NCBI GenBank assembly: GCA_903813345.2
Contig: CAIIXF020000005.1
Span: forward strand, 38,751,375-38,815,374
Reading direction: 5' to 3'
DNA from: Owenia fusiformis
Lineage: Eukaryota; Annelida; Polychaeta; Sabellida; Oweniidae
Length of the DNA stretch: 64,000 nucleotides
Shown here: positions 24,118 through 51,200 of the stretch, piece after piece
Layout of the letters: each line of letters begins with the position of its first letter
Position numbering within the stretch: position 1 is the stretch's first letter
Notes under the pieces: model-generated
The model's database searches: none
What the model was told of the DNA's origin: nothing
Seen by the model: only the letters and a program-made list of their open reading frames with translations
Position numbers and translations under genes: made by a program

Positions 24118-24265
24118 ATGGGAGTATTCGTAGTAGGATTTTGGGTCTTAAGTGTGATATGCGTGATTTTGTACTTGATAACTAGATCGACCGTGCAATC
24201 TTCGAGTGATGCAAAATTCAAAAGTTTTCAGTCCACATATATTGTGGTGTATTTGCTTGCTATGG
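24118..24265 (+). CDS. mfsd5: MFSD5 exon 1
   Basis: It starts at ATG 24118 with A at -3 and G at +4; TAA at 24112-24114 is in frame just upstream. It encodes residues 1-49: a first membrane helix, a short charged loop and the start of helix 2, ending LLAM. It ends in phase 1 at the donor GTAAGT (24266). Confidence 0.92.
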
Positions 24266-27200
24266 GTAAGTATTTACAGTATATTCAGGTGAATAGAATC
24301 TCTAGCGTTGTGGACTTGATGTTTACATGACCAAGTTCTATCCTAAGGACGTATATGAGATTTCCCAAAAAACATGAAGGAGTTTCATTGAATTGATTTT
24401 ATGTTAGTCTCAGGCTCAAGTTAGAAATCATTGAGGCCAGGGGCGGATCCAGGATTTTGTCTTAGGGGGGGGGGGGGGGGGGCGTGTGATAAAAACTGTG
24501 AGTCAAATTTTGTAAAAAGCAATGAGCCTAAACACGAATTTTCCGACTTTTTTTTGAGATTTTTCGGGCATGACATGTTCATGGATAAGCTTGAACTCAA
24601 ATAATGTTTTAAAAGGGACAAGAATAGACAATATGTTCTAAAGGTGACTTGTTTTAACTGAACAGTAATTGAACTGAAAAATAACTGAACATGACAGGCC
24701 ATTCATTGTCTTAAGGTACAGCTGGAAAGTAACATTTTGGTAAAAAATTGCTATACCAGCACATGTTATTTTCTGGTACAAAATAAAGTATGAAGACATG
24801 TGTCAATTGCCTTGCTTTTTTCAGGAAAGTATCATTACACTGTCTTCTTTAAGAATACCTAGTAGGAGTTCAATAGAGAGAAAACTTTTGTTTGACACCC
24901 TTACGCAATTTAATTTTGTAGGAAGTCCTAACTTTATTTTCAAAAAGCTTTTATCTCATAAAAATTCTTATGTAATTTTACATCTAGCAAAGTTCATTTA
25001 TCATTCATTCAAAAAACTGGATTAATATTGTAACAATGATACATCACACTGATGTTTTAAATTCTGTCATGTTGTATCTGTATTTTACAATTATCTCATT
25101 TTTGTATTTTACATTTTGTGATGCTGTAATTGTATTTTACAACTTTGTATATTTCCTATGAAGTAGTTAGTTTAGTCTTAGTATAATTTTGTATATTGTA
25201 GTTTGTAGTGACTAATATGTCATTGCAATGACATCAGAGAGTCAATAAAAGATATATATATAATGGGAACTACAGGAAATTCTGATATTTCACAATTTCT
25301 TTTTTTCCAAATTTTCTTTCAAAGTTTCCAGACAACACAGGAGATACCATTGACCTGTTTCCAGGTTTACTAAAAGTAGACAGTGTAATGATACTTTCCT
25401 GAAAAAAGCAAGGAAATACACACATGCCTTCATACTTAATTTTGTACCAGAAAATAACATGTGCAGGTATAGCAATTTTTTACCAAAATGTTACTTTCCA
25501 GCTGAACCTTAAATGCTTAAATTGAATAAATCTGACTAAATATGTTGAGTAAAATTTAAATGCGACAATCTATATGAAAATTTTGGAATTTTAAGAGTGA
25601 CTTCAGCGACCTCCCTACCCCCTCTTGTGCATCAGGCAACCTATATTCGATTTTAGACCATTTGCTATATGTTTAGAAATCACTGAGCCGAAAAGCTTCA
25701 TATAAGTAACTAGCACACATTAAACATCAAGTGAGGTAAAATCATTGTTGCAAAGCAGTCACGATTGAATTAATTGCACATTTTATTGGATACATGTATT
25801 TCCAGTCACACGGAGACTTTGTTTTGACTCAACTTCAAAACCACTTTTAAACCAATGTTTTGGTAGACTGGGCGTGTATATTTGCCACATGTATATTGGC
25901 CATCTCTCAACTGTCTTGTGAAGTTAAAGCAGTTATGAAATAGAATTTTTGACCTAAAGGAATCAATATAATTTTTTGATAAATGTATTTGGACATCTCA
26001 TTTCTCATCATGCAGTATTGTGAAAATTATTTCACTCTAACGATCGTTATTTCTAGAAATTAGTATGATTAAATCATAATTGCTCAAATATTTTCAATTT
26101 AGTTAAAATATATAGAATGATTACGATGGTGTGAATTACCCCTTTACTGACAATGTTATCAATTATTGCAGTGTCTGTCCACAAATGCAATATTTGGACA
26201 TTGATTCGGTTTCAAAATAATCACCAATGTAACCAACATTTAGCCCTCTTTTTGTTCACTTCTAGTAATTTTCCATTATTTGTCAACTGATTCTATGTTT
26301 AAATTCATTTTTCAGCGGCTGACTGGATGCAGGGGCCCTATGTATATGCCCTTTACGCTGCATATGGAATGTCGACACATCAAATAGAGGTCCTGTTTGT
26401 TGCAGGATTCGGCTCTAGTATGATATTTGGAACTATCATAGGCTCATTTGCTGACAAATAGTAAGTTATTATTCCTTCAGTGAGAAAATGAACATAGAAA
26501 ATGGTATACATACCCAGGCCTGTAGCCAGGATTTGCCATGGGGGGGTTCAGTTTTCAAAAACTTTCAGGGGGGGTTCACATTTGACAATTTTGGCCCAAA
26601 TATGGTGCTCAAAATGTTGAAAAACTGCATGATTTTGAAAGAATTTTTGGCCATATGGGGGGGTTGCCCGAACCCTGCGAACCCCCCCCCCCTGGCTATG
26701 GGCCTCCATACCTATTACATAGCAGTGATCCCCCAGCATAAAAGCAAGTACGCACTGTACCCAATTGAAATTTTAATAATAGGCTTGCACCCACCCGAGA
26801 TTCCATATGCGTTGAAAAAGAGTAAAATGGTGAAAAATAGGCATATTTTTTACTAGGTGCATTCATTCACCCTCTGGGTCTCTGAGGATCGTGTTGGCCC
26901 CAGGGGTGCATAACGTGCAATGTAAATTTATCAAATATAAGAAATGCTGAAAAGTCCGGATCTGATGTTTTTGACTTTTCTCCCAAGATCTTACCTCGAT
27001 CTTGAAAATTCTTTCACCACTGGATAGCGGTACCAAAAATCTTCAAAATGAACCCATAAATGCCTCGTTTTATTACAGTAATTATGTGTAATAGTTGCAG
27101 ATAAGACGAAATTGCATTTCTGACCGGTCTTCTTGACATTTTCGCTGACCTAATTTCAAGTGCGCATGCGTTGCATAAATCAGTGTGATGATCACGTGAC

Positions 27201-30200
27201 GTGACGTAATTTGATGATCACGTGTTGTAATGTTTTCCAATAACCAGTTGGTAAAACTGCTATAGTGGATTCTTGATTCAATATGTTTGTTATCACGTCT
27301 TGTATCTGTTCTGGCTTCAAATCAAATCCAAACTTTGGTTTTATGTTATGCGAATAGAGATCATTGATTTCTTCCATCGAATACATGATGGTCGAATGAA
27401 TGATATAAACTCTGTATAGTTAAATAGATGGCAGCAATATTCAATGGCTACTCTCGTCAAATCTCGTGAGAATAGAAGCCGCCATAAAGATTTTGTGAAC
27501 AGTAGCGACAAACAGCGATTTTGCTACAAAATTAGCACAATTCAACCTTCTACAACCACAAAACTATGGAAATTTTTTGTATAAATCATCAATGTATCCA
27601 TTTTGTTTATATTTCTCTGTAAATGACGCAGAGATTCTAAGCAGAAGATTAAAATAAAGTGAACCGTCAAAAATAATCAAGAAAAACTTAGATTGGCATG
27701 AATTTACAAGGATAAACACCGCCTCTAATGCAAGTCCTTACGACAATCCAACGCATTAGAGGCGGTGTTCACCGTCTAATTTTTTACCAAAGGTCTCTAA
27801 ATTGTGAAAATGAAAAGTTTGCTCCCACTTGAGAAAAAAACCAGGGGAGTCAATACTAGAATTGGTAGAGATCTCACCATTAGAGAAAACCAGTACTAGT
27901 TTACAATTTTACACCATGTCAAAATGATGAAATTGATGTATTCTGACCAGAATGTTTTTTTTGATTTTGAACCCCACTGAGAAAGAATCACTGATCTATA
28001 TAGTTTATCATGATGTTAAAAATAATTGGCAAAATTTTTTGTAGCTTTGGATTTAAGATTGTTACATCAGAGTGAAATATGTTGATAGGCTATAATTGTA
28101 CTTGGTTATAAGTAATTAAATGTGTATGTAAGATTGTAAAGAGGTTTTTTAACACAGCATGACTGCTCTAATATGTATGACATTAAATGTAGTTCATATC
28201 GTTAAATTGCCTAAAACTTTAAAGTACACCATTTATGGTCTGTTTATTTTCATGATTCTGTTTTTGTGGATCTGTTCTTATTTTTCATTGAATCATGATA
28301 TAGCACTCTCAAATAGCCAAATACGGGAAATATAATACAATTTCTTCTGAATATTGGAGCTTTGTACTGTTGTCTGACTGAAGTGATTGCTAAATATTGC
28401 TTTAGCTTTGGTATAAAAGACACTTTTAGACCAACAAACTTATAAGCATTTATTCTCCCAATTTTTGAATCACATGAGACAAAATATTGTAAGAATTTCT
28501 TTCCATTTTTTTTCAGTGGCCGAAGGAACAATGCAATTCTGTACGGTGTACTATATGGGTTGGCTTGTGTTACGAAGGTAATAAATATATAATTTAAAAT
28601 ACAAAACTTGGACACCTCCATAATTACCTATGTACTTACATTGGGTCATGCAAAACATAAAAAATCCCTAAAATTGAATGATAAATAGAATTTCATTTCC
28701 TTTTAATATATCAGTTAAAATGTGTTCAGTAAAAAAAGGTATCTCATCTTTGAACACTTAACGTCAGAAATCAAGGTTATCAATTTGAACATTTTTTTTT
28801 ATTTTCTGTCCAATTTCTTTCTTCTCCACTCCTGTGTTACATATGAAAGCAATTACCAGGTCCTATTAGCTTGATATAAGACAGGTTTTATACTACTATA
28901 TACAGAAGTTTTTTATCACCAGATTTATCAAACTATTTGTTTTGTTTTGTTAAAGGATATAGAGGATCATGTCAGTGCATGACACATGAGATAAATTAAG
29001 AAATGTATGAGTAATGTATCATTATACAGTTTGTTTATTTAGCATGTTCATATTTTGTGATATGATATCCAGTCAACATGATTTTCATACAAAAGTGTTC
29101 TTGCCATGGTACTCAGGAGTGGCAATGTCAATGCAAATTCTGAATGTTAATTTGATGTAATTTATAACTGAAACTTAAAATTCAAAAGAAATTGACATGA
29201 TAAATGTTCACAGTTGTAAAACTAATAATATATTTATGATAGATATTACCCCATGTTATTAGACACTTATCTGTATTATTTAACATGTGTTTAGGCTATA
29301 CAGTCCATAAATTGCATTTTTGCTGAAGCTCATAGAACAATTTTGTTATTGCATAGGAATAAGAATCAGTTTTAAATTTTAAAATGAACATGTTTTCTCA
29401 TTTGACATGCTGCGATATATAACGTGATTCTTTTTTATTGGTTTTTGTCCTGCTTGACCTACTAAATCACTATTTCTCTTTTGTTTGCTATATAATCTCA
29501 TATCAGCTCGTTGTCTTACATTGAGTGGCAAATAACTTGTTAAGGTAGTTGTTAACCAGCAAAATTTTAATGACTTCCTCATTATGTGGAGGAAATAAAG
29601 ATACTGAACTGAACTGAATTGATATGTTTTTTCTAAATTAGTATGCCCACATCTATGTAGTTACATATACAATAGGTCTGTAGCATATGGTATTGTTGTC
29701 AGTTTGACATTTGTACTGGTGTTTTCTCACCTTTTCTTGGAAAATCACTAGAAAGATCGATTTAGAATTTATGATTTTCATGGTGTGAACAATTACTTAT
29801 CTTGATTATTGTAGCATTTTAACAACTTCCACATTCTGATGGTGGGGCGTGTATTAGGTGGGATAGCGACATCTATACTGTATAGTACCTTTGAATCATG
29901 GCTTGTCTACGAACACAATAAGGTAAGGTTATCTACATGTCCTTAATAATCCTTTAATATTCTAATCCCTTTCTGATGTGACGTGTTTACATGTTAACAT
30001 GGCCATAAAATTGTGACCAATGAAACTATGTAGAATGAAAGAACGAGCTTTAATTGCCCCAAATGTGACTTAAGCCCCATACTGGATGACGATGAGTTTA
30101 AGATTTGTTTGGGTTATGTTTTTTGGCTCACCCTATATTGATGTAGTTAAATTGAACCTCTGTAAAATGTGTAATTTTTATATTTTTAAACTAAAATTAT

Positions 30201-33200
30201 ATTTTTCAGCGAGGATTTGAAGGGGACCTTCTTGGAAGTATTTTCTCTCATGCCATATTTGGTAATTCTGTAGTAGCGATATTGTCTGGACTAGTAGCAC
30301 AAACGTTTGCTGATTATTTTGGCTATGTGTAAGTAATGCAATACTAGTTTCATTTTCAGTAAGTACTAGTATATCATATTTGTGGATATTTATGTACCCA
30401 TATCCATCATATGTCATGGATATTGATTTTATCCTCCGTTTATTGAAGTAATCTCATGAGCTCAGCTGGCTGATTTTAAACATCATGTGTCATTCTTTGG
30501 TACATGCTGTACTGCTAAAGAGGTGTACATTGCAAAATACTGTATAGCATTAACAAGGCCAGATTAAAGTTTATTTATTGAATAAAGTATGTTTAAATTG
30601 TCATTTATTTAAATATATGCTCATGTTATCATTCTCATTCTTAGGGCACCATTTGATGTTTCTATGACGATTCTAGCTGTTATGTGTGTTGTCATCATGT
30701 TTACATGGGTTGAAAACTATGGAGACCAGAACAGTAACATATCAGAGAGTTTCAGCAGTGCCTTCAGATCCATCAAAACAGGTATGTTTCCTCAGTAGTG
30801 CCTTTAAATCCATTGAAACTGATGGTGTTCCTTCAACAGTGCCTTTAAATCCATCAAAATAGGTGGCGTTCTTTCAACAGTGCCTTTAAATCCATCAAAA
30901 TAGGTGGCATTCTTTTAACAGTGCCTTTAAATCCATCAAAATAGGTGGCATTCTTTCAACAGTGCCTTTAAATCCATAAAAATAGGTGGCGTTCTTTCAA
31001 CAGTGCCTTTAAATCCATCAAAATAGGTGGCATTCTTTTAACAGTGCCTTTAAATCCATCAAAATAGGTGGCATTCTTTTAACAGTGCCTTTAAATCCAT
31101 CAAAATAGGTGGCATTCTTTCAACAGTGCCTTTAAATCCATAAAAATAGGTGGCGTTCTTTCAACAGTGCCTTTAAATCCATCAAAAATAGGTGGCATTC
31201 TTTTAACAGTGCCTTTAAATCCATCAAAATAGGTGGCATTCTTTCAACAGTGCCTTTAAATCCATAAAAATAGGTGGCGTTCTTTCAACAGTGCCTTTAA
31301 ATCTATCAAAACAGGTATGTTTCTTCAGTAGTGCCTTTAAATCCATTGAAAATGGTGGGATTCCTTCAACAATGTCTTTAAATCCATTGAAAATGGTGGG
31401 GTTCCTTCAACAATGTCTTTAAATCCATTGAAAATGGTGGGGTTCCTTCAACAGTGCCTTAAGTCAATTGAAACTAATGGGGTTCCTTCAATAGTGCCTT
31501 TAAATCCATTGGAACTTTAGATACTCTGAATGATCTTGATTGGACATCTGGTTGCAGAGAAATCGTAATTTTACTGAGTGGCTTCATGAAAAAATAAAAA
31601 GGCTATACGCCTCGTTGATTTAACATTTTTAGATTGTGTGGAATACTGGAGTTATGTGTTATAAAGTTCAACTTAGGAAGTCTAATTTCTGATACGTTAC
31701 TACTCTACAATAAATGCATGTAGTAAACATGCATCACCTCTAACTTGTTTCAGATTACAAGATCCTATGCCTAGGTCTAATTCAGTCTCTGTTTGAGGGC
31801 TCTATGTATACATTTGTGTTGGAGTGGACGCCTGCACTCACTCCCCCTGCCCCAGCAGAACAGGCAGCTAGTAGGTCACTTCTGGTAGATGATGCTAAAG
31901 ATAGTGATAACCATAATGGGACCATTCCTCATGGATACATATTCGCAGGTTTCATGGTATGTATAATGGGTGTCAAGTATGTACCAATAAAACCTGCAAA
32001 AAAGGAATACTCTCTGGCCCGGCCAAGATTTTTCCATGTAGAGAGGTGTTGCCTTCAGAGAGGGTCCGTTTTGGGCCAACCCCCAAAACTAAATTTGCCG
32101 AATAAGTATTTAATTATTGTAGATGGTGGATTACTGATGTGATAGTAGCGCAATATTGGTTAAGCCTATATTCAAGTTTCTTCCACCCCATTTTGTTGCA
32201 TTTACAGTCTGCAATTTTGTATCTTTAAAAGATTTAAAACAATTTGGTTCAATATCACACAATTACATTTCTATGATCTCCTAAAACAGTTGATTCTGTC
32301 CCTAGCTAGAATAGCTCAACTTGTCAGATGAATCATCTTTTGTTTAAAGAAAGTATTTGTGCCAATTACTAAGGTGCGAGTAGGTAGTTACCAGTTTCGC
32401 CTCCAGGTGGCTGATTCGGGGGAAATAACATGGCAGGGTACTACAAAATTCTCTTAAACTTGAATATTCATCAGTTTTAGTGGTTCACTTTTCATATTAC
32501 CCTTATGTATCTGATAGTTATACAAATTAAAATATGTCCAGTAAAAGAAAATATTATCTGCCCAACACAAGAAAAGATATTTCCATTTTTGTGATTTTAC
32601 AACATGGGGTCTATGGGGAATATCCCCGTCCTAAAAGTCACATTTTTAAAGAAAATTAAATTTTCCAGTTGATTATCTCTTTTTAAAACCACATTTCTAG
32701 ATGTAATTTTACATGTAGATTCCAAATATGAAATGAATTTTGAATTTTTAATAACGTAAATCAAGATTATTTCTACTCGCCACTAGGATATTCACAGGCT
32801 GGTATCGAAAGATTTGTCCGCTGTGACAGAGCATGATTATTTTCATAAAAACATTCAGAATAATTCACAATTTATTTTTTAACTCATATGTTTCGTTATA
32901 TCAGAGAAAATTACCTACTCCATGCAATGGATATATCATTAATTGCGGGTAACCTTCACTTCTACTTGAAGTCCAATAACGCTAGGAGTAAAAGCTATTG
33001 AACACAGCGCCAGAGTATCAGTCTAAAATGTGCCATTTCTTTCTTTTTAATGGCATGATAGTGAGACGATATGTGTTAATGTTATCTGGATGTATGGGGT
33101 CTTTTAAAAAAGAAATGGTACATTTTAGAGTTTGATACTCTGGCGCCGTTTTCAATAGCTTTTACTCCTAGCGTTATGGAACTTTAAACAGAAGTGAAGG

Positions 33201-36200
33201 TTATATCGATTGCATGGAGTAAGTAATTTTCTTTGACATAATGAAACATATTAGTTAAAAAATTAATTGTGGAGTATTCTTAGTGTTTATATGAAAAATA
33301 ACATGCTCCGTCACAGCGGACAAATCTTTCAATAACAGCCTGTGATATTGGCAGTTTAAAACAACCAGATTAATTAAGGTAAATAACAGTGGAAGGGATG
33401 TCGCAGCTTGTCAACAATCTACTTTATAATCTCATTTATATATTAATCTAAGCTCTTTAGGTGTACAGAGTAACCAATATTCATTGTGAACATGTAAATT
33501 TTCAAACCTAGTAGACAGGTGTTTTTTACATAGAGGATCTGTTAACATGGAAGTCTCCTCTCAATACTCTGAATCGTGAATGATTGAGAGGAGACCATTT
33601 TTGGAAAATGTTGTGAACTGCAATTCATGTAATTCAATTGTAGATGTCAATATTATGATAACTGTATATTGAAATGAAAAAGCAATTAATTAGTTTATGG
33701 TTTATAGTAAATGCCCCTGGCCATTTATCATTTTGTTAAATCCCATCCATGAGAGGGAAATATTACATTCCATGTGACATTTTTGAAGAGCATAATTCCA
33801 TATGACATTATTGGGAGGGAATAATGCTTCATTCCATATGACATCAATAAGGGAGATAATGCTTCATTCCATATGACATCAATAAGAGGGATAATGCTTC
33901 ATTCCATTTGACATCAATAAGGGGATAATGCTTCATTCCATATGACATCAATAAGGGAGATACACAACGTGAAACACTATTTTCTAAGCACTACTAAGAA
34001 AGAATACTTAATGTCTTATCCATAAGTAATAAGCACTACTAACTACTAATTCTCAGGAATAAAAAGTTCACACTTATCATACCTATTGAGAGATAAATAT
34101 TGCTTATCCTCGGCCCAGGTACGTCTTATCCGTGTGTCATGTGACTACTGCGTTAATTAACTAAGTAAAGCATTTCAATTTAAGTGTAGTATGTTTGCAT
34201 GCAGCAAGCATTTAATCATTTTTGATTTTTGATTAAAAATAACTCCTTTGGATCAAATATTTAAATTCTACTAGAGTGCGGGGAGTGGAAACAAGTCTCC
34301 ATTCAAGCACTGAATATCAAAAGAAAGATTTCAGGACCCCTTAACTTCACTCCCGGACTTTTCTATTCAACACCACCCATCCCCCTTCCCCAATTATCCC
34401 TAATGATCCCAGAATGTTCGTTTCTGTGCCCCCTGTCCATGGCCAGTAATTAATCTATGTGTATATTGTCTCCCTCCAAAAGGTAGGAAAAACCAGATGC
34501 AGACATAAACATTGACAAGGTGAGGGGATTTAAATATAAAAATAGTCTTGTTTTTGGCTCTGACTTAAATATCTTGACACTGTTTAACGAAGCCGGTTTA
34601 AGGAATGAGAGGCAGAAATAATTCCTAGATGATCTTTCTTTACTGTAATTAAGATGCTACTTAACCGCAATTTTAAAAGGGATTAAGTTATTTACCTTGT
34701 GATAATTTAATACTACTTATTGATTGGTTTGCCAAATATAATACCCCGTATAAGACCCTTGTCTCTGATTGTAAAACATCTGTATGCACCAAATCCGAGG
34801 AATATTACATTATGTGAAACAATTCCAAAAAGTTTTGTCTTGAACTCAATCAAATAGCAATATATTTCAACATGTAGAAATTATTTATTAACATAATGTC
34901 GGGCACTATAGGTTAAAGGGTTTTCAGTTTTGCTCTTTTTGTGTCACGCTTGAATTGTGTGCTTTATTTATTTGGGATTTGAATTTGGAAAGGTGAATTC
35001 ACGATCAATAAAGTTTATAATATCATTCATTAACCAATACATCGAGGCAAAGCCACCTTTCAAATACATCATCTATTATGCATGTCCATTTGTAGCAATC
35101 ACACGGCCCATACCACTAGGGGTATGTAGATGTTAATGAATGGGAAACTTTAATCTTTTTATCTTTATGTTTTCATTAAACAGCCAGAAAAAACTATTTT
35201 TCATTTCCCAAGGAATTTAAAATGTATCTAATATATTATACAATCAGACAGACTGGCTATTCTAATCCGTTATGAAAGGCCATTTGTTTTTTTCCACTAC
35301 AGGATGTTTCTTCAGAAGTTAATTAATTGTTTATCTTAGTGTTTAGATGCATTGTCCCTTGACGCTTTCATGAAATAAATGAACTTTGTGATGGACTACA
35401 ATTGTATATTTTTACAGGAACAGTTATTTTTATCACCAAAGTAGAGCACTTGTTACATTATTTTCATTTTAGGTCTCTCTTATTAGTTGCATTGCAGAAG
35501 TCTAATATTATTCTCTCCGTGTGCCGAATGTACTTATACCCGTAGCCAAGGGGTGGGGGTGGTTCAAGGAGTGCGAGAATTGGAATTGAATACAAAATAA
35601 ATACGTAACATATAAATCTATAAGTACATAATATCTAGCCAAGTCTTCTTGCATTTTCTGAACTTCAAATGCGCCTTTTGATGTGTGGTAACAAAATACT
35701 AAATAAATATTTATGTTAATCCAGCTTGTTTTCATATTAATTTGGCAATAAAACATGTATAAAGAGATAGCAAATTGTGCACAACCCCAATCCCTTCCCC
35801 GATCGGGTCGCGTTTACTATGTATGTTATAATGTGTAAAAGTAATTTGTAATAAAGACAATAATGCCCCCCCCCCTCCCCTATTGCAACCATCTTCGTTC
35901 ACTCGGCTCCCGTCGATGAACACAGTTAAGACCGAGCGTGCGATGTATTGCAACATTTTGTCAATTAATGGCATTGGCCCGGGGTATCAACACACATTTG
36001 ATTGAAATAATTCAAACCAAAGTTCCAAATGAATAAAGAACGTGAAGGTTCTGCTTGACATTCGAACAAAAATTTATCCAGTCAAAAATAGATTTCTAAT
36101 ATTTGATCTTGATTAGATGTATTTATTGATCCTTAATTAAAACTACAAATGGTTCACTCAATTCCGAATAAACAAAAAATAATCCTATACACGTTTACTT

Positions 36201-39200
36201 GGTTCTCATGATACTGCCTATAACCTATAATACTCATGTATCAAAACAAATATTAATTAATCCGTCTGTGTGATTGTTCCCTGACTCAAACTAAGCAAAC
36301 CCCGATTTCAGTTCTAAATATTTCACTTGAAACGATTTAGCCAACATGATACAATATGACATTTGATTAATTATACATGTATAAAGCCAATTATTATCAA
36401 AACCCATAAATGCTCACAATATAAATATAGTTTTATTTATGGCCAATAACAGATATCAGGGGCGTAGCCAGCTTTCAGTCAGGGGGGGGGGTGCGATCGC
36501 CAAAAAGATTTTGGGTTTCAGTCGGGGGGGGGGTGCGATTGTGACATAATCGGGGGGTGCGATTGTGACATAAACCAGCCAAAAAATGATTTTTATATTG
36601 AATTTTACAAAATTAGATGCAACTTCATTCCAAATTGAGCTAGAAGCTTCAAATAAAAAGCTTTAAAGTTCTTTTTCTCCTCTTTCTCAGGGTCTTATTC
36701 TTATTCGCAACCCCCCCCCCCTGGCTAAGCCTATGGATATTTAGACAAGTTTCAAATAAATAACCTAGCAACCAACCACGCAAGCAACCAAGCAAGCAAG
36801 CAAACGACCATCAAAGCAAGCATTAAACTAAGCAAGTAAAAAAAACATGCAACTTACAAATAAAGCAAGCAAACAACCGACAAACCAACCAATCAAGTAA
36901 CTAATCAAACTCTAATCCAGCAAAGAAACCAAGGAAGCAACTAAGCAACAAAAAAAGAATGTAAGCAAGTAAACGGTCAATCAAGCAAGCAATCGTGCAG
37001 ATAAGCAAGCAAACAAACAATCTACCATCCAAGCAACTAAGTAACATAATTCAATAAGATTAAAATTAAACCTTGCGCACATTTTCTCTACGAGGGGCGT
37101 ACGGTGGCCGGAGCTTCAAAAAACTAGATACACGTTGAAAGTTCCAAAGTGCAAAATGTAGCTCTGTGCTTAATTTTGGTTATGTTTAAGATGAAACTTT
37201 TCAGATTTGCTTCACTTAATGCATATCCCCAGGATTTCAAAATACGATACATCTGTATGTATTACAATTGGAGACAAATTTCTAATACTTGTCCAATCAA
37301 TCAGTGATATCAATTTCATTGTTTTCATAACTGGGAATGTTTAACTTGATTACAGGAGATCGGCTAGGAATTGTTTTTCAGGCTGAGATTCGAAGAGGCA
37401 CTTTTAAGTAACGCCTCCTGGCGACTTAAGAATTGAGTAATATAGAGCTATCATATTGATTACATTTATCAATCACAGAAATGAAACACATTGGAGCATA
37501 CATGAAGTTAAATAATTTGGGATGGGAGGGGGGTAGTGAACACACGGGATACTGAATTCTTCCTCTTAAACATAAACTTAAACGTCAGTGCTTGAATGAA
37601 GGCTTCCCCCGGGGCTTCCCTTTAACAGATTTAGGGAGTTTTACAACTAGTTTTACTGAAACTGAAGTTTTTCAATTGACTTTGTTATAACATCTTATTA
37701 TAATACACTGGATATTATGTAAAAGTATTGATGTGTATTTCGTACTCCTGACAATCGAATTTCATATCAAACATTTGCAATATAGTTTTACAGTGGTATT
37801 AATTACAGTGTTATTGCTTCAATAAATGCAACACATTTACCAGATTTTAGATTGGACTTTCTACACGATGATAAAATATTTTGGTGATATTCTTTTCGAT
37901 AAAACCCAATCACAAATCTCATGGCATCGACTTTATTAATCATACATGTATCTGCACATGTGAAAATGATCTTGCATGTAGAAATTTCATTATATGTAAC
38001 CCCCCACAGCTCCCTCCCGACCTGTAAGATTAAAATGGAATAAGTGATTGATCATTGATCTGATAAGCCACTTATATGCAAGATTATTAATTTTAAAAAT
38101 AGACCAACTTGATATTGTTTAAAGTTAGTTTTAACACATTTTCCATCGATATACGGTAGCATAGAAATAAACATGTGACTGTTTCCAGGGGCTGTTTGGC
38201 ATTTTGAAGACAATCCTTTTGTTTCTTGTCACTTTTTAATGTGTTAATATTCAGCATTAAGTGTTAACGTTCGGCGGTTGGGATTTGGCGTTTGTTAAAA
38301 ATCGCAGGTCGTTCATTGCATCACTAGAAATATGTCGAGTCGGGGTTTGATTTTGCAAGTATAAGGGTATCATTTTCAGCAGAGATTATTATTTAAGACT
38401 TCATTATTTTTCTAATCCTCATTACATGAACTTTAGATTAAACAAATGATCAAAGGATGGCTTTTTGCACCACTGTTGAATCGGGGAATGATTGTGCAGC
38501 AAATCTTGAGCATTCACCAACAAATGCGCGATTACCATTTTGTTTTACATGTAAATCATACTAGTTATTCAAGACCCTGTACAATCCACTTTAACAACTG
38601 TCAGGAGGGCTTGTAACTCGATTTAATCATACAGGGTATTTATTGAGAGGGGTTCCGGGGGATATTGGTTATATACCAAGGGCAATGTGTTAAGTTTGAA
38701 GAAAAGTTTAAGGTTTATTCAATAAAAAAGAGATTATAACACATCAATTACACAATCACACCAATTCGTGTGATTTAGCTGGGAATGCCTTTTGTGAATA
38801 TGTACATGTATATTGTGTGAAGGAAAAAAGATCGTCTGCGTCTAACAATTAATTACAGTAGCAATGTTTTTCTAGATACTTAACTGCAGGTGATCAAAGA
38901 TGTCAAATCATGGGAACCAAAAGTATAATCTCATGAAAGTTTAAACGCTTTAAATTACAATATTCAAATGCTTTTGCTTTAAACTATTGATTCGTGCTCT
39001 TGTGCTAAAATTTCACTATGTTGCCATTTGAAATAGGTAATTGGTATCTTCCGAATTTCCATATTTTCAAATAAGTCAGACTATGACTAAAGGAAAATAA
39101 CTAGAATCAAACCCCCAAACTGGCCCCTGGCATTCTTAATGACTTGATTTCAAATATTAATATACAAGAAACAAACTGGAGACATAAATAAGATCGGGTA

Positions 39201-42200
39201 TGGGAGATGAGGGGTGAGTAAATGGGACATTGTATGCCCCCTCTGTAACAGACCTTCAATACAAACTTGTTTCAAATCCCGGGTTTCAAATCACACTAAT
39301 AGTTTTAAAATGTACAATTTAAGCAGTATATTCTAACCAAACCTATAATCCTTTAGTTTCTTCAGGAATTTGCAAAAGAAAGTATTTGAATTTTTTATTA
39401 GGCTCAGCATTATTTTGCAACCAAGATTTATTCATTTATATTGTATTTAGAAAAATAGTATTTCAATCAGACAGACGTTCTAATGAGTTAGGAAAATACA
39501 TTTGTCCATTTCCTCTCAGGAAGTTTTCAAAAGTAATCTAGTCGATTTGTTTATTTTAGTGTTTAGCATTGTTTTTCATAACTTGACGCTTCCATGAATA
39601 GAATGACTTTGAAATTAGATTTTTTATAATTTTAGCTTTTACACGGACATAATTATTGTATATTTCTACATGAACGTCGCCCCCCCCCCAAATTACAGAT
39701 ATACAACTTTGGGTTGAGAGACAGGCCTGATGGTGCATCGGGGATGGTAACAATGTGGTTTATACAATCATTAAAACACTGCAATGTTTGTAGAATGAAA
39801 ATATTAAGTCATGCATTGGTCAATATTGAATTTAAACTGGCGGGGATTAAACAAAACGCCAGATCGTTGATTGTCTTACTGGCTTGCTTGAAGATAATGC
39901 ACGAATCAAATAGCATTGATTTCTTCTTAATCAGATGGATAAGCTTATTGTTTTCTCTAATTAAAAGGCGGCTTTAAGTTACTTTTACAGGATTTGCAAA
40001 TTCGCAATCAGACTGGCTTATTTTAATCCGGTTTATTTGGTGTTTGATTTCGACTCTAACTGAAATAATTTATCACAAACAATGGATAAGCAAACAGAGA
40101 CCGGTTTAAAAATGAGAATAGAGGCAAAAATAACTCTATTCATAAACTGTAATTAAAACCCAGGAGCAATTCTAGACTGTTAGATAATCTTTTCTGTAAT
40201 CAAGGTGATGTTGGTATACGTCCGCAGTTAAAAAACAAAGACTATATAGCAATTAATCCTTTTGTTATCATTAAATGTTAGATTCTTATTATTTTTGATG
40301 GACAATGTTAAAACTTCTGTCTCCGATTGTTATGCAGGCATGTGTATGAAAAAGAGAGTTTCGTCTTCTTATAGTTTATAACTAGACTCTGTACGCATGG
40401 TAATAGTGCCCCTATTATCCATGTTCAGGGGCATAGCCAACTTTCAGTCAGGGGGGGGGGATACGATCGCCAAGAAAAACAATCTCGGTTTTCATTCGGG
40501 AGAGGGGTGCAATCGTGGCAAAAGCAGGCCAAAAGATGCAACTTCCTTCAAAATTGAGCTAGAAGCTTCTTTCTCTTCTTCTATTTCATGGTTCTATTTT
40601 ATTGGTTATACATCGCACCCCCCCCCCCTGGCTACGGCTATGCCATTTGACTTTGAGAGTCAAAAAGAGAGGCGACAAGACAGTTAAAACAAGTACTTCC
40701 AATAAATACTTTTACAGTTTTAATGTGTTTATCAACGACCCTACTAGTCAAATTAATGGAAACGAAAAATAAATGCTTTCATTACGGAAAAAACCGGAAA
40801 ACCGTAGAAATATCTACCTGATTCGCTAGAATAGTCACATTACTTCAGTGCAAACAATTAATATCTATAATATTTATTTTATATTATTGATATCTTTCCC
40901 CTGACAATATGTTATCTCATGGTCCGTTAACATCATCAACAATGTGATTTACAACAAGAGATTAACCAACATTTCTTTAATTAAAAAGTTGATATTTCTT
41001 GCTTTTTTAAAGCAAAAACACTATGACACAATAGCATCAAGGCAAAATCAAAACATGGTGTGGAAATAAAAGGCATACAAAATGGCCATTAAAAGGACAT
41101 AACATGGGAAATCTTGCCGTTTTGCAACCATTCCTAAAATCAGTAAAGCATACCAGACTGAGAAACGCCGGATCATGGACAACTGGCTGATGTAATTATG
41201 AGCGACAAGACAGTTCAAACAACACATGACGCTCAATATCAATATGGTGTAATGTTTCTTCCAACGGCCCCGTTTATTATATTATTAAAACAATTGCTCA
41301 ATTTGCAACAACGCTGTATTTATTTTTATATGTAAAATACCTGATATATTGATAATATGTCTTCCATAACAAATGCTTATATATATCTTACCTCAGTCAT
41401 TTCATTATCTCATGGTTAGACATAATCAATCTTATGATTTACCACAAAGAATTACACCATTTCTTAATTTTTTTACTTATCAAACATCACTTATTAAAAA
41501 TATAAAAAATGGACAATAAAATTTTTGAATAAAACTATCAAATCAGTCATTGCTCAGCAAATACAAAGTATAAAGGAATAATAAACAGAACGTGTTCGCA
41601 CAAAGTTGAAAATACGGATCGGCAAGTCAACAAGTCTGACCGTTAAATAAACAAACATAACCTATGTCTCCAATTGTTCGTCTGCTGGTCAGAACTTGGT
41701 ATCCGCTTCGGATAACCAATTTCTGAGAATACTGATGTCTTAAATAGATCAGACTTTTTGCATAAAGACGTCTTTAAATAAGAATATTTAATCTGCAACT
41801 TCAATTAATATCGTAAACCACAACACCTTGCTGGCGTCTGGTAAATCTAAAAACCTGTTTTTCTTAAAATATTACATTTTTATTAATAGATTTATAAAGT
41901 GTAGCTTTCTTTTAAACGAATTGTCCTTATCTAGCTTTATGGATTATCACGCTTCTATTTAGCTGAACACATCGATACTTACTACTCGTTATCAGTCCAA
42001 AAACCAAGCATACACATGTAGCATATTCAAATGTATTTAATCTAATATGCAATAGAATAAGACACGATAATTAAAAAGATAAACCTCGGTATTCGGGCCT
42101 AAAAACCACGGATACGTGTATCAATACCTAGGGGTAAGCAGAAGTAACCTTCCAAATAAGTGTATCAATAATCAAGGATAGCGACAACTAAGCACCGAGT

Positions 42201-45200
42201 AAGATGGTAATAAGCAGTTTATTGCAATTTATTAAACACGATTTTGTCTTGTGATAATGCTTCATTCCATATGACATCAAGACATCAATAAGGGACATAA
42301 TGCTTCATTCCATATGACATCAATAAGGGGGATAATGCTTTATTCCATATGACATCCATGAGAGGGATGGTGTTATACTCTTTATATGATTTTGATCTTT
42401 CCCTTTCTATCCATATTGAAATTGAATTCTTTATGCATTTAGTGTGTGTGTCTATTAAGGATCAGCAGATGTGTTTCCTGCAATAAATGGCATCTCAGTT
42501 TAGTCGCATAATAAAAGCAACACCAAATAACCTTTAAATGGCAGTTAATCTAATTGAAGGATGTAATATATGCCATAAGTATGCCTTAAAACTATATGTA
42601 CATACACTGTATACTATATTTGCAGGTTGCTTGTATGATAGGATCACTGTATACTATATTTGCAGGTTGCTTGTATGATAGGATCACTGTATACTATATT
42701 TGCAGGTTGCTTGTATGATAGGATCACTGTATACTATATTTGCAGGTTGCTTGTATGATAGGATCACTGTATACTATATTTGCAGGTTGCTTGTATGATA
42801 GGATCACTGTATACTATATTTGCAGGTTGCTTGTATGATAGGATCACTGTATACTATATTTTCAGGTTGCTTGTATGATAGGATCACTGTATACTATATT
42901 AGCAGGTTGCTTGTATGATAGGATCACTGTATACTATATTTTCAGGTTGCTTGTATGATAGGATCACTGTATACTATATTTGCAGGTTGCTTGTATGATA
43001 GGATCACTGTATACTATATTTGCAGGTTGCTTGTATGATAGGATCACTGTATACTATATTTGCAGGTTGCTTGTATGATAGGATCACTGTATACTATATT
43101 TGCAGGTTGCTTGTATGATAGGATCACTGTATACTATATTTTCAGGTTGCTTGTATGATAGGATCACTGTATACTATATTTGCAGGTTGCTTGTATGATA
43201 GGATCACTGTATACTATATTAGCAGGTTGCTTGTATGATAGGATCACTGTATACTATATTTGCAGGTTGCTTTTATGATAGGATCACTGTATACTATATT
43301 TGCAGGTTGCTTGTATGATAGGATCACTGTATACTATATTTGCAGGTTGCTTGTATGATAGGATCACTGTATACTATATTTGCAGATTGCTTGTATGATA
43401 GGATCACTGTATACTATATTTGCAGGTTGCTTGTATGATAGGATCACTGTATACTATATTTGCAGGTTGCTTGTATGATAGGATCACTGTATACTATATT
43501 TGCAGATTGCTTGTATGATAGGATCACTGTATACTATATTTGCAGATTGCTTGTATGATAGGATCACTGTATACTATATTTGCAGGTTGCTTGTATGATA
43601 GGATCTTCTCTTTTTAAAATCCTGCTCAAGTTTTCAACTCCTGAGTCTTTCATGAGGTAGGTCCATTCAAAAATTATTTGTTTGTTTTATTTTGGTGCAT
43701 TGATCCAAAATGCAGGCAACAGCTTAACTTGATACAAGCAGTAAACTGTCAATATGCCAATCTACACTAGGCTTATGGACAACTCATCCCTGAGACAAGG
43801 CAAGACAAGTGATTTGTCCAGGGGATGACTTGTCCAGCCGTACATTAGGCTTAAGTTAAGACTTTCATGATGAACTGGAAAATTGATATTTTGATGAAAA
43901 CAACTTCAGAGAATCATTATTTTCTTACCCTGAAAATATGGACACTACATATTCTGCCATTGCAAACAATCATTTCAAATTCAAACTTCTAAAAGCTGTA
44001 TTTATGTTTAAGATCAAATGTGTAAAATCATGTATTTTAATCAGAGAGTAGTATTGATACTAGTTATTGAGAATATTCAGGGTATTATTTATCATTACCA
44101 TCTACAAACACATTCCTCTCTATTTCCAGGCCAGTGCTATTCATATCAGCCATATCTCTCATTACACCTGTACTGTTCCCAGGAGTAAGTATTAAAACAT
44201 CTTCCAAGATTATTTTTGTTAAGCTAAATATTTCAATATTGTTTACTCAAATGAGCTTTAATCAAGAAATATAGACCTCAGAGCAGGTGTAATATCGTTG
44301 AATACATCCCGTAGGGCTAGGCACAAATGTTTTCTGTGCACCGAAGACTGAATCACTACGGCCCGCCGTTATGATGTCACACGTAGTGTTGCCGAATATA
44401 CCCCGGGTGAAATGTTGACTTTGTTCACAGTTTATACAAGGTGTGAATACAGTCATGTTCGAATTATCAATAAAAATACATATACGAGTATGTTCTTGTC
44501 AAGGTTTTGAAAACAATTTCCAAGCGTTTGAGTGACTTTTTGCAAAATTGGCATACAGCTCTGAAATTGACAATCATGGACATTAATGAATTTTCTTACA
44601 CTCTACTTGCCAAAAAGTGTAGACATACTCTTAAAGTCACAATTTTTTGTGACCACTGTTCAGCATTCAGCTTCAATATTCATGGTTCTGTAACAAATTG
44701 TTACATATTTGTAGCAATTTGCAAAAACTTAGCAAGTGGTGATTTTTTGTCATGTTGACTCCTTTAATAAGAGAATAACATCGATTACAATTAATTAACC
44801 TTAAAAAACGTAATTGAACTCACCTTGATAAAAGAGAAAGCTCATGATAGCAAGAAATATATTTATGAGAAGAATTATGACATAAATCTCACCAACAAAG
44901 AGAACTGTCAAATGAATTTATAGATCCAGACAATAAAATCTAGAAACAAAAGCATGCGATGTAGGATACTAGGATTTATGTTGACTGTGAATGTCAGCAT
45001 GTATTACTAGACTAAGTATTTTTGAAATATTTAATATTGCATCCCTTTAAGGATGTTTATGTTATTTCTGTTGCAAATTTTTACATATCGAATATGTTTG
45101 TTTCAGTCAGTTTCTCGTCATATACCTAGCACATTCCACTGGAGCATTAATGTTTAGATTGCAAATTGTAAGGTTTTAAACTCCTAACAATCTACTTAAC

Positions 45201-48200
45201 ACAACTTAATCCATTTCATTTTCTCCTGAGGCTTGGGACTTAAGACTGATTCGAACATGACTGTATTCACGCCTTCTATAAACTATAAACAAAGTCAACA
45301 TTTCACCCGGGGTATATTCGCAAAGAATACCCCTGGTGTAATGTGTGATGTCATAACGGCGGGTCGTAGTAATGGCAGACCATAATGAAAATTCGAAACA
45401 TTTTGTGAGTTTTCATGTTCGAATCACTCCCTTTGTTTGTGCCTGGCCCTGCGGGGTGTATTCGATGATATTACCCCTGCTCTTCGGTCTATATTTCTTA
45501 ACTAGTATACACGTATAACTAGTATACACGCATGCTGAGTAAATTACATGGCAGCCATTTTGAGCTTCAAAGTGTGATATTAATTTTGTGTCTTGTTTCC
45601 AGAATCAACTCATTATCTTTATTGGGTTCCTTGTATTTGAAGTGTGTGTTGGGATATTCTGGCCATCACTCAGTACCATGCGTAGCAAATATGTACCAGA
45701 ATCAAGTAAGTGTATAATCCAAGGCAATTCTTCTTTTTAAGAAAGAAAGAGTAATTTTTAGTCGATACTGCTGTGTCAATTTTACTTATGTGCTGAGCTT
45801 ATGGAATGGCCCACTTGTCTTTCCGTCAATTTTTGTCAAATGAAAAGTGCCATGGGTGCCAATTCTGGTAATTTTCACTGGCTCCTACTTGTCTAATTTT
45901 GGAGAAATCATTCTTTTTGTCTAAACAAGTCTGAAGAATACAGCATTATATTTGTTTAATGTTTTAATTATTACTTATTTGAGTTTGGTCAAAGGTAATT
46001 TGAACTACTTTTACAAAAATGCCAAAATTGTTTTTTTGAGTAAATATTTATTCATCTGTGATGGACAATTAACATTGATAACTAGAGATCGAACGATCTA
46101 AGATTGCAAGCAATCTTACGGAGGCCCTATATTCGTTTCTGAACATTCTAAGGCCAGCCAAAGGTCAAATCTCTAATACAAGGTCATATATGAACTCCAG
46201 ACAACTTGTAGATGATTTTTAAAAAAGGTTTGGTCGAATTAATGCAAGTTGAAATTTGACCTTGAAAAATTCCGAACTTTGACCTTTTTTCAGTTTTTGA
46301 GCTATAATATCTCAAAACTGGAGCCAAATTTTAATAGATAATCAATTGCTAATATGTGTAGAACCTTTAGTAAAGGAATATATATTTTGACTTTCATTTC
46401 AAAATATTGATTTGTAGTCTCCAATTTTGAGAAACTTAGAAAACACAGTTTGTGATTTCGTTTGATGACCTTGACCTTTGACCTTGCAAATTTTACTTTT
46501 TTAGACCTCAGAAGGTCTTTTGTGAATAAATATACCTAAATTTGAATCCAGAAAATCGATTTGAAAAATCAACTTTTTTGACCTTTCGGAGGTCACTGAA
46601 GGTCAACCAAAGGTCAAAGGTCAAAAGTAAGGTTAGATTTGGAATCCTGAGAACTTGTAGATGAGTTTTTAAAAAAATTGGTCAATTTGAAGCAAGTTGA
46701 AATTTGACCTTGAAAAATTTCGAAATTTGACCTTTTTTCAGTTTTTGAGTTCCAATACCTCAAAACTGGTACACAATTTTAATAAATAGTCAATTGCTAA
46801 TATGTGTAGAACCTTAAGAGGAATATATATTCTGACTTTCAGTAAAAAAAATTGATTTGTAGTCTCCAATTTTGAGAAACTTAGAAAACACAGTTTGTGA
46901 TTTCGTTTGATGACCTTGACCTTTGACCTTGCAAATTTTACTTTTTTGGATCTCTTGGGGTCTTTTGTGATTAAATGCACCTAAATTTGAATCCAGAAAA
47001 TTGATTTGAAAAATCAACTTTTTTGACCTTTCGGAGGTCACTGAAGGTCAACCAAAGGTCAAAGGTCAAAAGTAAGGTCAGATTTGGAATCCTGAGAATT
47101 CGTAGATGAGTTTTAAAAAAAAGTTTGGTCAATTTGAAGCAAGCTGAAAAAAGAGCTTTTTTGACCTTTTTTTGACCTTCAATATCTCAAAATCTAGGCA
47201 AAATTTCCCTAGACGGCAAAAAGCTTAGACTAAAAGAATACTAATAGCTATCTGTATGCAAAAATTCAGCCAAAAATATTGAAGTGTAGTGTCAGGATTT
47301 GAGAAACTTGACAAAAACTTAGATTTGACCTAGATTTTGACCTTTGACCTTGACCTAGATATGAACTAATTTCCCGACAAGTCCAGCCCAGGTCCCTAAT
47401 AGGACTATATATGAGATAAGTCAAAGCTAGCTGGAAGTTGGAGAAAAAATGCTAAAAAGAATAATAAATAAATAAATAAAGAAGAATAACTACAAAAATG
47501 ATAGGAGGCCCCTTGAAGGGCCTCCTAATAAAAACTTACTATTTTTGAACTTTATTGATGTTCTAAAATGTTTATTTTCAGCTCGTGCAACAATCATGAA
47601 TTGTTTTAGAATCCCATTGAATCTCATAGTCGTTCTCATTCTAACACAGGTAAGTGTAGGGTGACCTTAGGTGTTAGGCACTTAATGTTACAAGTATTCA
47701 GTTTGAGGTTTGGTAGTAAGGGGGGAAGTTAAGTCGATAAATAAAAAGTGCATAAATCAATTTTAAGTATACCATTTTCTGTTCAACTTAAACAATTATG
47801 CTAAAAAGGTTGTTTTGTTAAGAAGGAATGTTGGATGGCCTATAAGCTCACAAAATGGGTTTTACTAGGTTTAATTTATTCATTAAAACTGCATGTACCA
47901 CATCTACAACTATACTTACTACATCTAAGGAAATGACTATTCGTTATTACTTCATTGTATGGTAAACTCTAATGAGTGCACAGTTCCAATGTGTGCACAT
48001 GAGGGCCTTTTTATATGATAAATATGGTCACAAGAAAACAATGCATTAGTTTTGATTGTTTACTCAAGAAGATATCAATTGATGATTATATTTAATGCAA
48101 GAGAAAGAAATACAGTAGAGTATGTAAATATAAACCTTAGTGATAACAACTAAAAAAGCTTTTCGGAAATATTTTTCTAACTACAGTATTTGGTATGTGC

Positions 48201-51200
48201 GCTTATTTGCTTCTCAATATCTTACTTAGTAACCCTTTTAAATTTCAATTAGGGAACTGCACCATGCGCTCATTAGTGAGAATATGGTAGATCTTATATC
48301 CATGTAATAATCTTCAAATTGATCTTTTATATTAACCTTAATATCAGTTACAGAATATTTTATTCTAATCATTTTGTTTCTTGCATATCTACAATTAATA
48401 GATTATTATTGATTTATTTGATTGTGCTAAAAAAGAAGAAAGTTCAACATCTGTTACAAGTAGGTCACCATGACCTGTATATATTTATCAAAAATTATTT
48501 TCTAAATCACCCTATGCAGACAGAGCCTGTGGGAAATATTGGGTGCGGCGCAAATGAGCGGAGGGTGCGGAGCTAACGGTCATTTTTGAATTTAAAATTG
48601 GGATATTTCTGAAACTAAGCCGTTTTGGGACTTCAAATATACCAAGATATGTGTATTTGACACCAAATATCAATAAAATTGTGAAAATAGTAGTGCAATT
48701 CATTTAATAGCGACGCAGTATGCCTTAAACATTTCCCAGACCTATATATTTTGAGACTATCCTTTTAATACTGCGTCCCCAGCATTCATAAAAATGGTGT
48801 TCAAGATACACTACCCATGCAAATTATTTTTTCATCTTGGAAGCCAGGCAGTATCTGTGTGATTTTATAAAAATTCGGAAATGTTCTTCAGATATGAGCC
48901 CCCTCTAAATATTGGGTGCGGAGGTACGTTTATGGAGCTCCTCCGCACCCAATATTTAGAGGGGGCTCATATCTGAAAAACATTTCCGAATTTTTATAAA
49001 ATCACACAGATACTGCCTGGCTTCCAAGATGCAAAAATAATTTGTATAGATAGTGTACCTTGAACACAATTTTTTATGAATGCTGGGGATAAAAGGATAA
49101 TTTCAAAATATATAGGTCTGGGAAAGGTTTAAGGCACACTGCGTCGCTATAGAATGAATTGCGCTACTATTTTTACAATTGTATTGATATTTGGTGTCAA
49201 ATACACATATCTTGGTATATTTGAAGTCCCAAAACGGCTTAGTTTCAGAAATATCCCAAATTTAAATTAAAAAATGACCGTTAGCTCCGCACCCTCCGCA
49301 CATTTGCTCCACACCCAATATTTCCCACAGGCTCTGTCTGCATAGGGTGTAAATGCTGGCAAATTGAATTTTGTGCATTGTTACAAAACTTAAATTCTGT
49401 TTCTGAGAACAATTCAAGATGAAGATCATCCACATCAATCAAACTAAAATGAACCTTTGCTCCTCCACACTGTTCAAGATTTTGATTGGCAGCTCTATTT
49501 TTGTACCTTCCATATTTGGAACATGAAATTGATGGCCTGTGTTAAAACTCCAAGGTCAAGCTGATCTGGTCACTCTTTAAGGCAATTTAGAAACAGATTT
49601 TTCATAGAAATTGATCAATTTCATCTTTATATTTCTCAGTCAAAACATATTTATAGAAAAATTTACCTTCCTAACCATTTTTGAGTATCTAATATCAGTT
49701 TAAGTAAGAGGTTTTAATCATGATTATTTTTGTCTGAAAAGGGGATTTTGCAGTGTTTTGCAGGACTGTTTTGTGAAAGAATTTCTGAGAATTCCCAAGT
49801 CTTCACAAGTTCAGGGTTTCATTTGATTTTTTGTGTGATGGAATTATCAGTTATACCAGCTGAGGATGGCATTGAGACAATGTTTATTTCATAAAATGAG
49901 GCTTTTTTTGATATGTCATTACTCAAAATGACATAATATCTGGTGCAAGGCTCTCTTACTTATTTTTGATATTTTAAGTAGACACCTCATTTTACAGGCT
50001 TGATCCCTTCATAACACCACTTTTTATCACACCATCGGTGGGATATAGTCGTCATACTGGTCGTGGTCGTGATCGTGATCATCCCGCTTTTTGTCATCGC
50101 GCGCCGTTTAAGGAAAACTGCTCATCAGATTTTCTCCAAATTCGCAGAGATGATAGAGCATATGAAGTACTAGAGCTGATTAACTTTTGAGCGGCCATCT
50201 TGTTTTCTGGTGGCCATTTTGAAAGTTTTTCGAAAAATCTTGTCATTGCAATTTAGGAAAACCGCTCATTGGATTTCCTTCAAATTTACACAAATGATAG
50301 AGGATATCAAGTACTAGAGCTGATTAGCTTTTGGGCGGCCATCTTGTTTTCTGGCAGCCATTTTGAAGATTTTTCGAAAAATCTTGTCATCGCCATTTCA
50401 GAGAATCCGCTCATCGGATTTCCTTCAAATTCACACACATGATAGAGGATATCAAGTACTAGAGCTGATTAACTTTTGGGCGGCCATCTTGTTTTCTGGT
50501 GGCCATTTTAAAGGTTTTTCGAGAAATCTTGTCATCTCCATTTCAGGAAAACCGCTCATAGGATTTCCTTCAAATTTACGGAACATGATAGAGGATATCA
50601 AGTACTAGAGCTGATTAACTTTGTGGCAGCCATCTTGTTTTCTGGTGGCCAGTTGAAGTTTTTTAGAAAAAATCTTGTCATCGCCAATTTAGGAAAATCG
50701 CTCATCGGATTTCCTTCAAATTCGCACAGATGATAGAGGATATCAAGTACTAGAGCTGATTAACTTTTTGGCGGCCATCTTGTTTTCTGGTGGCCATTTT
50801 TAAGGTTTTCGAAAAATCTTGTCATTGCCATTTCAGGAAAACTGCTCATCGGATTTCCTGTACATGATAGGATATATCAAGTTCTAGAAGTTATTGAATT
50901 TTGGGTGGCCATTTTGTTTTCTGGCGGCCATTTTGAAGGTTTTTCAATAAATCTTCTCATCGAAAACAATCCACTTTGTCATATTGCCTTAAAATTTTAG
51001 CTCAAGATGTGAGCTATTGATTAATATGACCACAGCCAACATTTTTTTCTTGTTCTTGAAATTTGTAAACATAATAGGAGAACAGTTTTCCTGGTTCATA
51101 GTGTCTGCCTATTTGATGGTGTGATCTCGTTCACGTCCCGTGCCTTGTTATGTAATTCCAACTAGGTTTACAAATACATTGTGAACACTAGTTGACAGTT

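Follow-up and report, generated by a model that had tools for sequence, protein, structure and literature searches.

Why should an intron end in 25 near-identical 3' splice sites, and do the 24 surplus sites serve the gene or does the gene simply put up with them? This question is raised by the window analysed here, a stretch of 64,000 nucleotides (GC content 33%) from the annelid Owenia fusiformis in which an apparently intact MFSD5-like gene carries a long tandem array at the end of its intron 7. The array and its surplus sites are located as follows:

42605..43604, + strand: acceptor array, 25 x 40 bp (TRF and unit table).
42626..43546, + strand: 24 decoy acceptors at 40-nt spacing, given as first exonic base from the first to the last decoy (gene model).

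The array consists of head-to-tail copies of a 40-bp unit that joins the final 21 nt of intron 7, with CAG at their end, to the opening 19 nt of exon 8. Each copy reads TATACTATATTTGCAG or a one-base variant of it, followed by GTTGCTTGTATGATAGGAT or a one-base variant, and nucleotide 20 of exon 8 is matched as well, as base 1 of the next unit. TRF reports the array at 42605-43605 with 25.0 copies, 98% matches, 0% indels, and a score of 1939. Sixteen of the 25 units equal the consensus and the other nine are one base off, with four variable positions overall and a divergence from the consensus of 9 per 1000 bases (<1%). The AG is kept in 25/25 units when these are read one by one, units 8 and 16 gain a second AG 3 bases upstream (TTAGCAG), and units 20, 23, and 24 have the first exon base changed from G to A. 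Beyond copy 25 the repeat ends and the sequence continues as the rest of exon 8; this copy is the authentic junction and the only one joined to a complete exon. An earlier note on this DNA had described the array in just these terms, as 25 copies of 40 bp that hold the end of intron 7 plus 20 nt of exon 8, all with AG and only the final one leading into a full exon behind 24 decoys, and TRF, the unit table, and the gene model bear that description out.

A DNA search of the assembly found the array at no second genomic place, and four isolated exact matches to the 16-mer TATACTATATTTGCAG lie elsewhere, which carry little weight in 498 Mb. In keeping with an annelid genome and unlike what would be expected of amphioxus, C6 holds three matches above the cut-off to Eryth_link_C (PF16915), a family attributed to annelid linker proteins, and the GC content of the window is low. 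Tandem arrays are error-prone and this locus is present once, which could point to an assembly artefact with a true copy number that is much lower or different, but the variant units are interspersed and do not look like one unit stuttered, and other arrays with individual structure are found elsewhere. We regard such an artefact as unlikely, and a modest error in the copy number as possible.

The gene around the array was modelled from splice signals with the protein of an intronless gene on C6 as guide. The model comprises 12 exons from 24118 to 48252 with consistent phases at every junction and a product of 427 residues (a slash marks the splice junction):

24118..24265, + strand: exon 1, ATG at 24118 (gene model).
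26316..26460, + strand: exon 2 (gene model and C6 alignment).
28517..28577, + strand: exon 3 (gene model).
29815..29922, + strand: exon 4 (gene model and C6 alignment).
30210..30328, + strand: exon 5 (gene model).
30645..30781, + strand: exon 6, donor AAACAG/gtatgt with a score of 6.3 (gene model).
31754..31956, + strand: exon 7 (gene model and C6 alignment).
31957..43585, + strand: intron 7, 11,629 nt, donor TTCATG/gtatgt; its 3' end is the acceptor array.
43586..43656, + strand: exon 8, 71 nt, phase 0, starting in copy 25; donor CATGAG/gtaggt (gene model).
44130..44184, + strand: exon 9 (gene model).
45603..45705, + strand: exon 10 (gene model and C6 alignment).
47582..47649, + strand: exon 11, weak homology with E 0.02 (gene model and C6 alignment).
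48187..48252, + strand: exon 12, probably the last, with the stop; more uncertain than any other exon, being based on splice signals and frame with no homology.

The spliced protein matches PF05631 over residues 4-346 with E 2.7e-136 and 454.6 bits against a cut-off of 25; this is the MFS_5 transporter family, which includes MFSD5, and the gene is called MFSD5-like here. No PDB match was found up to E 0.01, and NCBIfam gave three weak transporter matches that were all far below their cut-offs. Exon 8 encodes residues 308-331 and thus lies inside the PF05631 match. Its sequence VACMIGSSLFKILLK aligns in order with VCIMIGSAANQILVT of the intronless C6 gene, a short piece with an E of 38 when taken alone, and the exon 7/8 junction reads FM/VACMIGS compared to FMVCIMIGS in the C6 protein. 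The spanning Pfam match and the frames are better evidence for exon 8 than the C6 alignment. Elsewhere in that alignment, about 24 residues of exon 7 (window 31861-31932, approximate) are missing from the C6 protein. Just past the last exon, at 48508-49349, lies a large inverted repeat with arms of 260 nt plus an inner 135 nt, each arm pair 95% complementary around a centre of 15 nt, which resembles a foldback element.

A genome search with PF05631 listed exons of the window gene and, on C6, a single intronless gene (L001, C6:34088843-34089790; open frame of 475 codons, 272.2 bits), and no others. By its structure, the C6 gene would be an old retrogene. Such a second gene is what could be expected if the window gene were dying or redundant and its burdened splice site were tolerated because the product is dispensable. 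However, the frames of the window gene are open, each modelled junction has GT/AG, and the spliced protein scores far higher than the C6 frame, a comparison that is rough because the two scores come from different searches; we therefore consider this reading very unlikely. A retrocopy as a record of splicing was also looked for and given up, since the same search gives just the window gene and the C6 gene, and the latter is too diverged to tell.

The explanation that we favour, and hold to be likely, is that the acceptor array is a young minisatellite which straddles the 3' splice site of intron 7 by chance, a so-called "mirage". The 40 bp of intron end and exon 8 start would have undergone tandem duplication and expansion, with slippage or unequal exchange as the presumed cause, and the last acceptor would be paired with the donor of exon 8 by exon definition, so that the 24 upstream copies are removed as intron. 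Use of an upstream copy would put an early stop into the transcript, which nonsense-mediated decay (NMD) would presumably clear, and the copy number would be close to neutral and probably variable within the species.

For this explanation it matters which copy is used. The consistent phases and the PF05631 match imply that a full-length product needs the last acceptor, and copy 25 is probably the productive one; that the spliceosome may have to pick the last AG of 25, as the earlier note had proposed, follows from the gene structure if full-length protein is made. The intronic signal does not pick out this copy, because real and decoy acceptors score nearly equally: a score of 3.1 is shared by the real site with 21 of 24 decoys, and the three decoys with A as exon base reach 1.4, on a crude weight table that omits positions -4/-5 and to which the TTTTCAG and TTAGCAG variants are invisible. 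Copy 25 alone leads into a normal 71-nt exon with a good donor (score 6.5), and exons starting at the upstream copies would span 111 to 1031 nt. Exon definition is expected with long introns, such as one of 11.6 kb, so that definition across the exon should apply to intron 7 and favour the last one or few copies. Under simple 5'-to-3' scanning, an upstream AG near the branch point could win, and the decoys are nearly equal in intronic signal; both points count against the mirage reading.

It could also be imagined that the spliceosome hops from copy to copy by recursive splicing and still ends at exon 8, given that CAG/GTTGCT is present in 22/25 copies. Yet these would-be donors score around 0 within the array and -3.1 when joined to exon 7, compared to a range of 0.7 to 9.2 among the 11 modelled donors of the gene, three copies are without a GT altogether, and an intron of 40 nt would be very short. 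The weak donor scores in particular led us to reject this possibility, which seems extremely unlikely.

Translation from the 24 upstream acceptors reaches a premature stop in 24/24 cases, within exon 8 for the nearest decoy and 90 nt past exon 7 for the other 23, just as the earlier note had worked out for starts one copy and 2 to 24 copies early. Stops of this kind, each with exon junctions downstream, and decoy signals that nearly match the real site are what one would look for in a regulatory rheostat, in which the 24 decoys compete with the last copy, the stop-bearing share is degraded, and the copy number sets gene output. However, the frame is broken by a unit of 40 bp, and a run of three units covers all frames and meets a stop, so that selection is not needed and the frame break is the default for a stop-holding unit of this length. 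The intact AG is no better guide: four random variable positions out of 40 miss both AG bases with a chance of about 0.81, so that AG retention matches chance and is not evidence of selection, and we discarded AG conservation as a signature of selection because just four positions vary. By the same arithmetic, decoy sites within the array are not conserved beyond expectation. Premature stops and AG conservation therefore do not show regulation, and a rheostat seems quite unlikely to us, also in view of the further arrays described below.

A second array lies at the end of exon 6 of the same gene:

30750..31509, + strand: donor array, 41 bp x 18.6, over the 3' end of exon 6 and its donor, with the authentic donor as first copy (TRF).
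31291..31326, + strand: copy 14 of the donor array (AAACAG/gtatgt, exon end 31314), the sole decoy donor that equals the real score of 6.3.

The array opens with the end of exon 6 (...CATCAAAACAG/gtatgt). Eighteen copies could be located and scored, with copy 1 as the real donor and an in-register GT kept in 14/17 others; ten of these 14 decoys score <=0.2, three score 2.7 to 3.6, and one scores 6.3. Exon 6 extended to any of the 17 decoy donors would meet a stop at residue 244, which is notional for the three without a GT. Within one gene, a donor array that is mostly decayed thus coexists with a fresh acceptor array, and the decay of the former speaks against a rheostat. The picture drawn by the earlier note was sound in array anatomy and frames, and it had overlooked both this donor array and the wider pattern to which the two belong.

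This wider pattern emerged from exon matches to chaperonin, proteasome, and mitochondrial-carrier genes at 45 loci, a non-random sample picked for dense exons. A junction was scored when the 36 bases around it had a second copy of >=80% identity within 1.5 kb. Tandem copies were found at 9/205 called splice sites and at 13/309 raw homology edges, for which no splice site was chosen; both counts leave out L025 (a putative haplotig, included in the first pass) and L048 (a short contig) and skip homology edges at the PF00118 and PF00227 profile ends. Included are rows from L033 (2 of the called and 4 of the raw ones) that reflect an exon duplication of 763 bp and no minisatellite, and one raw-edge row of L010, at 7776, that falsely marks an edge within an array already counted; without these, the counts are 7/205 and 8/309. 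The duplicated mitochondrial-carrier exon of L033 (C2:6694856 and C2:6695619, 763 bp apart) may be a case of mutually exclusive exons. The background at the same loci was 1545/13529 for non-exon positions and 68/2003 for exon interiors. A first pass over paired introns had found tandem copies at 3/80 junctions outside the window gene and 2/22 within it, compared to 337/4926 and 251/2157 intron positions, respectively. Neighbouring positions are non-independent and no p-value is given for this reason, but the direction is the same in each count.

Junctions with tandem copies thus make up about 3-4% in the sampled genes, and about 4% of junctions compare to about 11% of intron positions. Junction arrays are recurrent and not enriched: they are rarer than in introns and about as frequent as in exon interiors, in a sample of three families in which unannotated exons may have been counted as introns and each junction finder missed arrays (the splice-site caller two in L010 that the raw edges found, and the raw edges those of L011 and L044). 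Junctions as duplication hotspots could be dismissed because the junction rate is below the intron rate. In total, the 45 sampled loci hold at least nine further junction-spanning duplications, among them the following:

L008 (chaperonin): 5 acceptor copies, 83-89 bp apart.
L013 (proteasome): 7 acceptor copies, 93-108 bp apart.
L010 (chaperonin; positions on the reverse complement): donor array of 20 x 53 bp at 2859-3930, acceptor array of 4 x 96 bp at 7657-8056, and degenerate donor array with 28-bp units at 912-1386.
L011 and L019: 2 acceptor copies each.
L003 and L044: 2 donor copies each.

The AG is kept in 15/15 decoys read in L008, L010, L011, L013, and L019. A stop is met by 12/12 decoys of L008, L011, L013, and L019, although the real copy of L011 also meets one at the segment end, where the homology segment probably overruns the exon. 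The 96-bp acceptor decoys of L010, however, are in frame and free of stops in 3/3 cases, so that a premature stop is not a constant of such arrays. These observations speak further against a rheostat, since chaperonin and proteasome genes have similar arrays at less than the intron rate and the decoys of one comparable array would cause an in-frame insertion without a stop. Together with the chance-level retention of AG, they leave the tuning of MFSD5 output through NMD that the earlier note had suggested unsupported. The mirage reading has to accommodate that the 25 copies in the window outsize every other sampled acceptor array, the largest of which has 7. We conclude that the acceptor array of the window is probably ordinary in its cause and unusual in its extent.

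How fast such arrays change can be gauged from two stretches, C483:283200-311500 and C2:17735600-17765900, that run colinear for 28 kb, with 84-98% identity across the aligned blocks and 94% identity over a 3.2-kb part, i.e., a difference of 6%. They are a probable haplotype pair left in the assembly, with a segmental duplication as the alternative. Array lengths were measured between conserved flanks, and 4/6 arrays with at least four copies in one or both stretches differ in length: one of 20 bp by 1.9 units, one of 24 bp by 1.9, one of 25 bp by 4.5, and another of 24 bp by 6.3 units (14.8 versus 10.2 copies according to TRF). The two unchanged ones, a 26-bp cluster of equal length and a 15/30-bp array that differs just by another insertion, count against the mirage reading. 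The paired arrays with 2-3 copies that were checked agree within 4 bp (5/5). Outside these six, a 16-bp array of 3.8 copies is nearly absent from the other stretch, and a 147-bp array sits in about 1 kb that is missing from it.

The divergence of <1% within the acceptor array is below the 6% of this pair, which implies that the array is recent or homogenised, and its length is likely to vary. A recent expansion may also reflect selection, which is a further point against the mirage reading. A bolder reading, which we hold to be quite improbable, is that decoys are used more as copies are added, that their products are lost to NMD, and that fast minisatellite mutation gives this evolvable rheostat a different setting of transporter output in each individual. 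In a wider version of this reading, the spliceosome or the exon-definition rules of this lineage, in which a few percent of splice sites bear junction arrays, may be unusually tolerant of duplicated sites.

Several known systems invite comparison. The minisatellite of IFI6 (6-16) is said to place multiple splice donors inside the gene and to have alternative donors in use; by these accounts, it differs from the window array in concerning a donor and not an acceptor, in gene and animal, and in its shorter unit. At NAGNAG or tandem acceptors, several acceptors that lie a few bases apart compete for one exon start. Here, in contrast, the whole junction is duplicated each 40 nt, yet copies 8 and 16 hold a double AG. 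Intron gain by tandem genomic duplication reportedly starts from a duplicated stretch that bears splice signals. The window array has no new intron to show for it, and a birth of intron 7 itself in this way, considered because its opening codons look similar to the exon 8 start and to the C6 protein, is not supported: a shuffle comparison of intron 7 start and exon 8 start gave p 0.12, and the score fell outside the best six of 50 introns. The intron-gain model is discussed in PMC3087553.

The closest parallel comes from amphioxus. According to two papers (PMC3087553, PMC3902484), minisatellite-like duplications over intron-exon boundaries, termed "mirages", are present in Adh3, the globins BflGb6 and BflGb9, and troponin C, with a similar case in PGBD5. 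They affect 5' or 3' sites and keep AG or GT in many copies, BflGb6 has haplotypes with 6 and 3 copies, and RT-PCR suggests that splicing is undisturbed (PMC3087553, PMC3902484). The units measure 150-160 bp in BflGb6, 157 bp in BflGb9, and 10-72 bp in Adh3 (PMC3087553). The window array shares with these that its head-to-tail units hold both intron end and exon start and that an outer copy alone is joined to a complete exon in a gene that is otherwise intact (with exon 12 uncertain). Unlike them, it has 25 copies that are 98% homogeneous, a 40-bp unit, and an annelid host, one gene bears both a donor and an acceptor array, and a sample rate can be set beside its background. In the open-access literature, no report of boundary-spanning minisatellites in annelids was among the matches listed, and an earthworm paper has, in its accessible part, minisatellites in an intron and no description of boundary-spanning arrays (PMC12783039). 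Judged by its sequence, the window array is probably the same kind of structure as the amphioxus mirages, in a higher copy number and probably a different phylum.

With these arrays, mirages would now be found outside amphioxus, as far as the literature covered goes, and an estimate of their rate is given here together with a background. Classical tests of splice-site choice used reporters that held a site in two or three copies. The 25 near-identical acceptors in one intron amount to a natural experiment in which upstream choices are marked by extra length and a stop, and further material comes from the roughly 20 donors arrayed in a chaperonin gene and from at least eight more sampled cases. 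The arrays of O. fusiformis could bear on branch-point scanning versus exon definition and on what decoy splice sites cost a gene.
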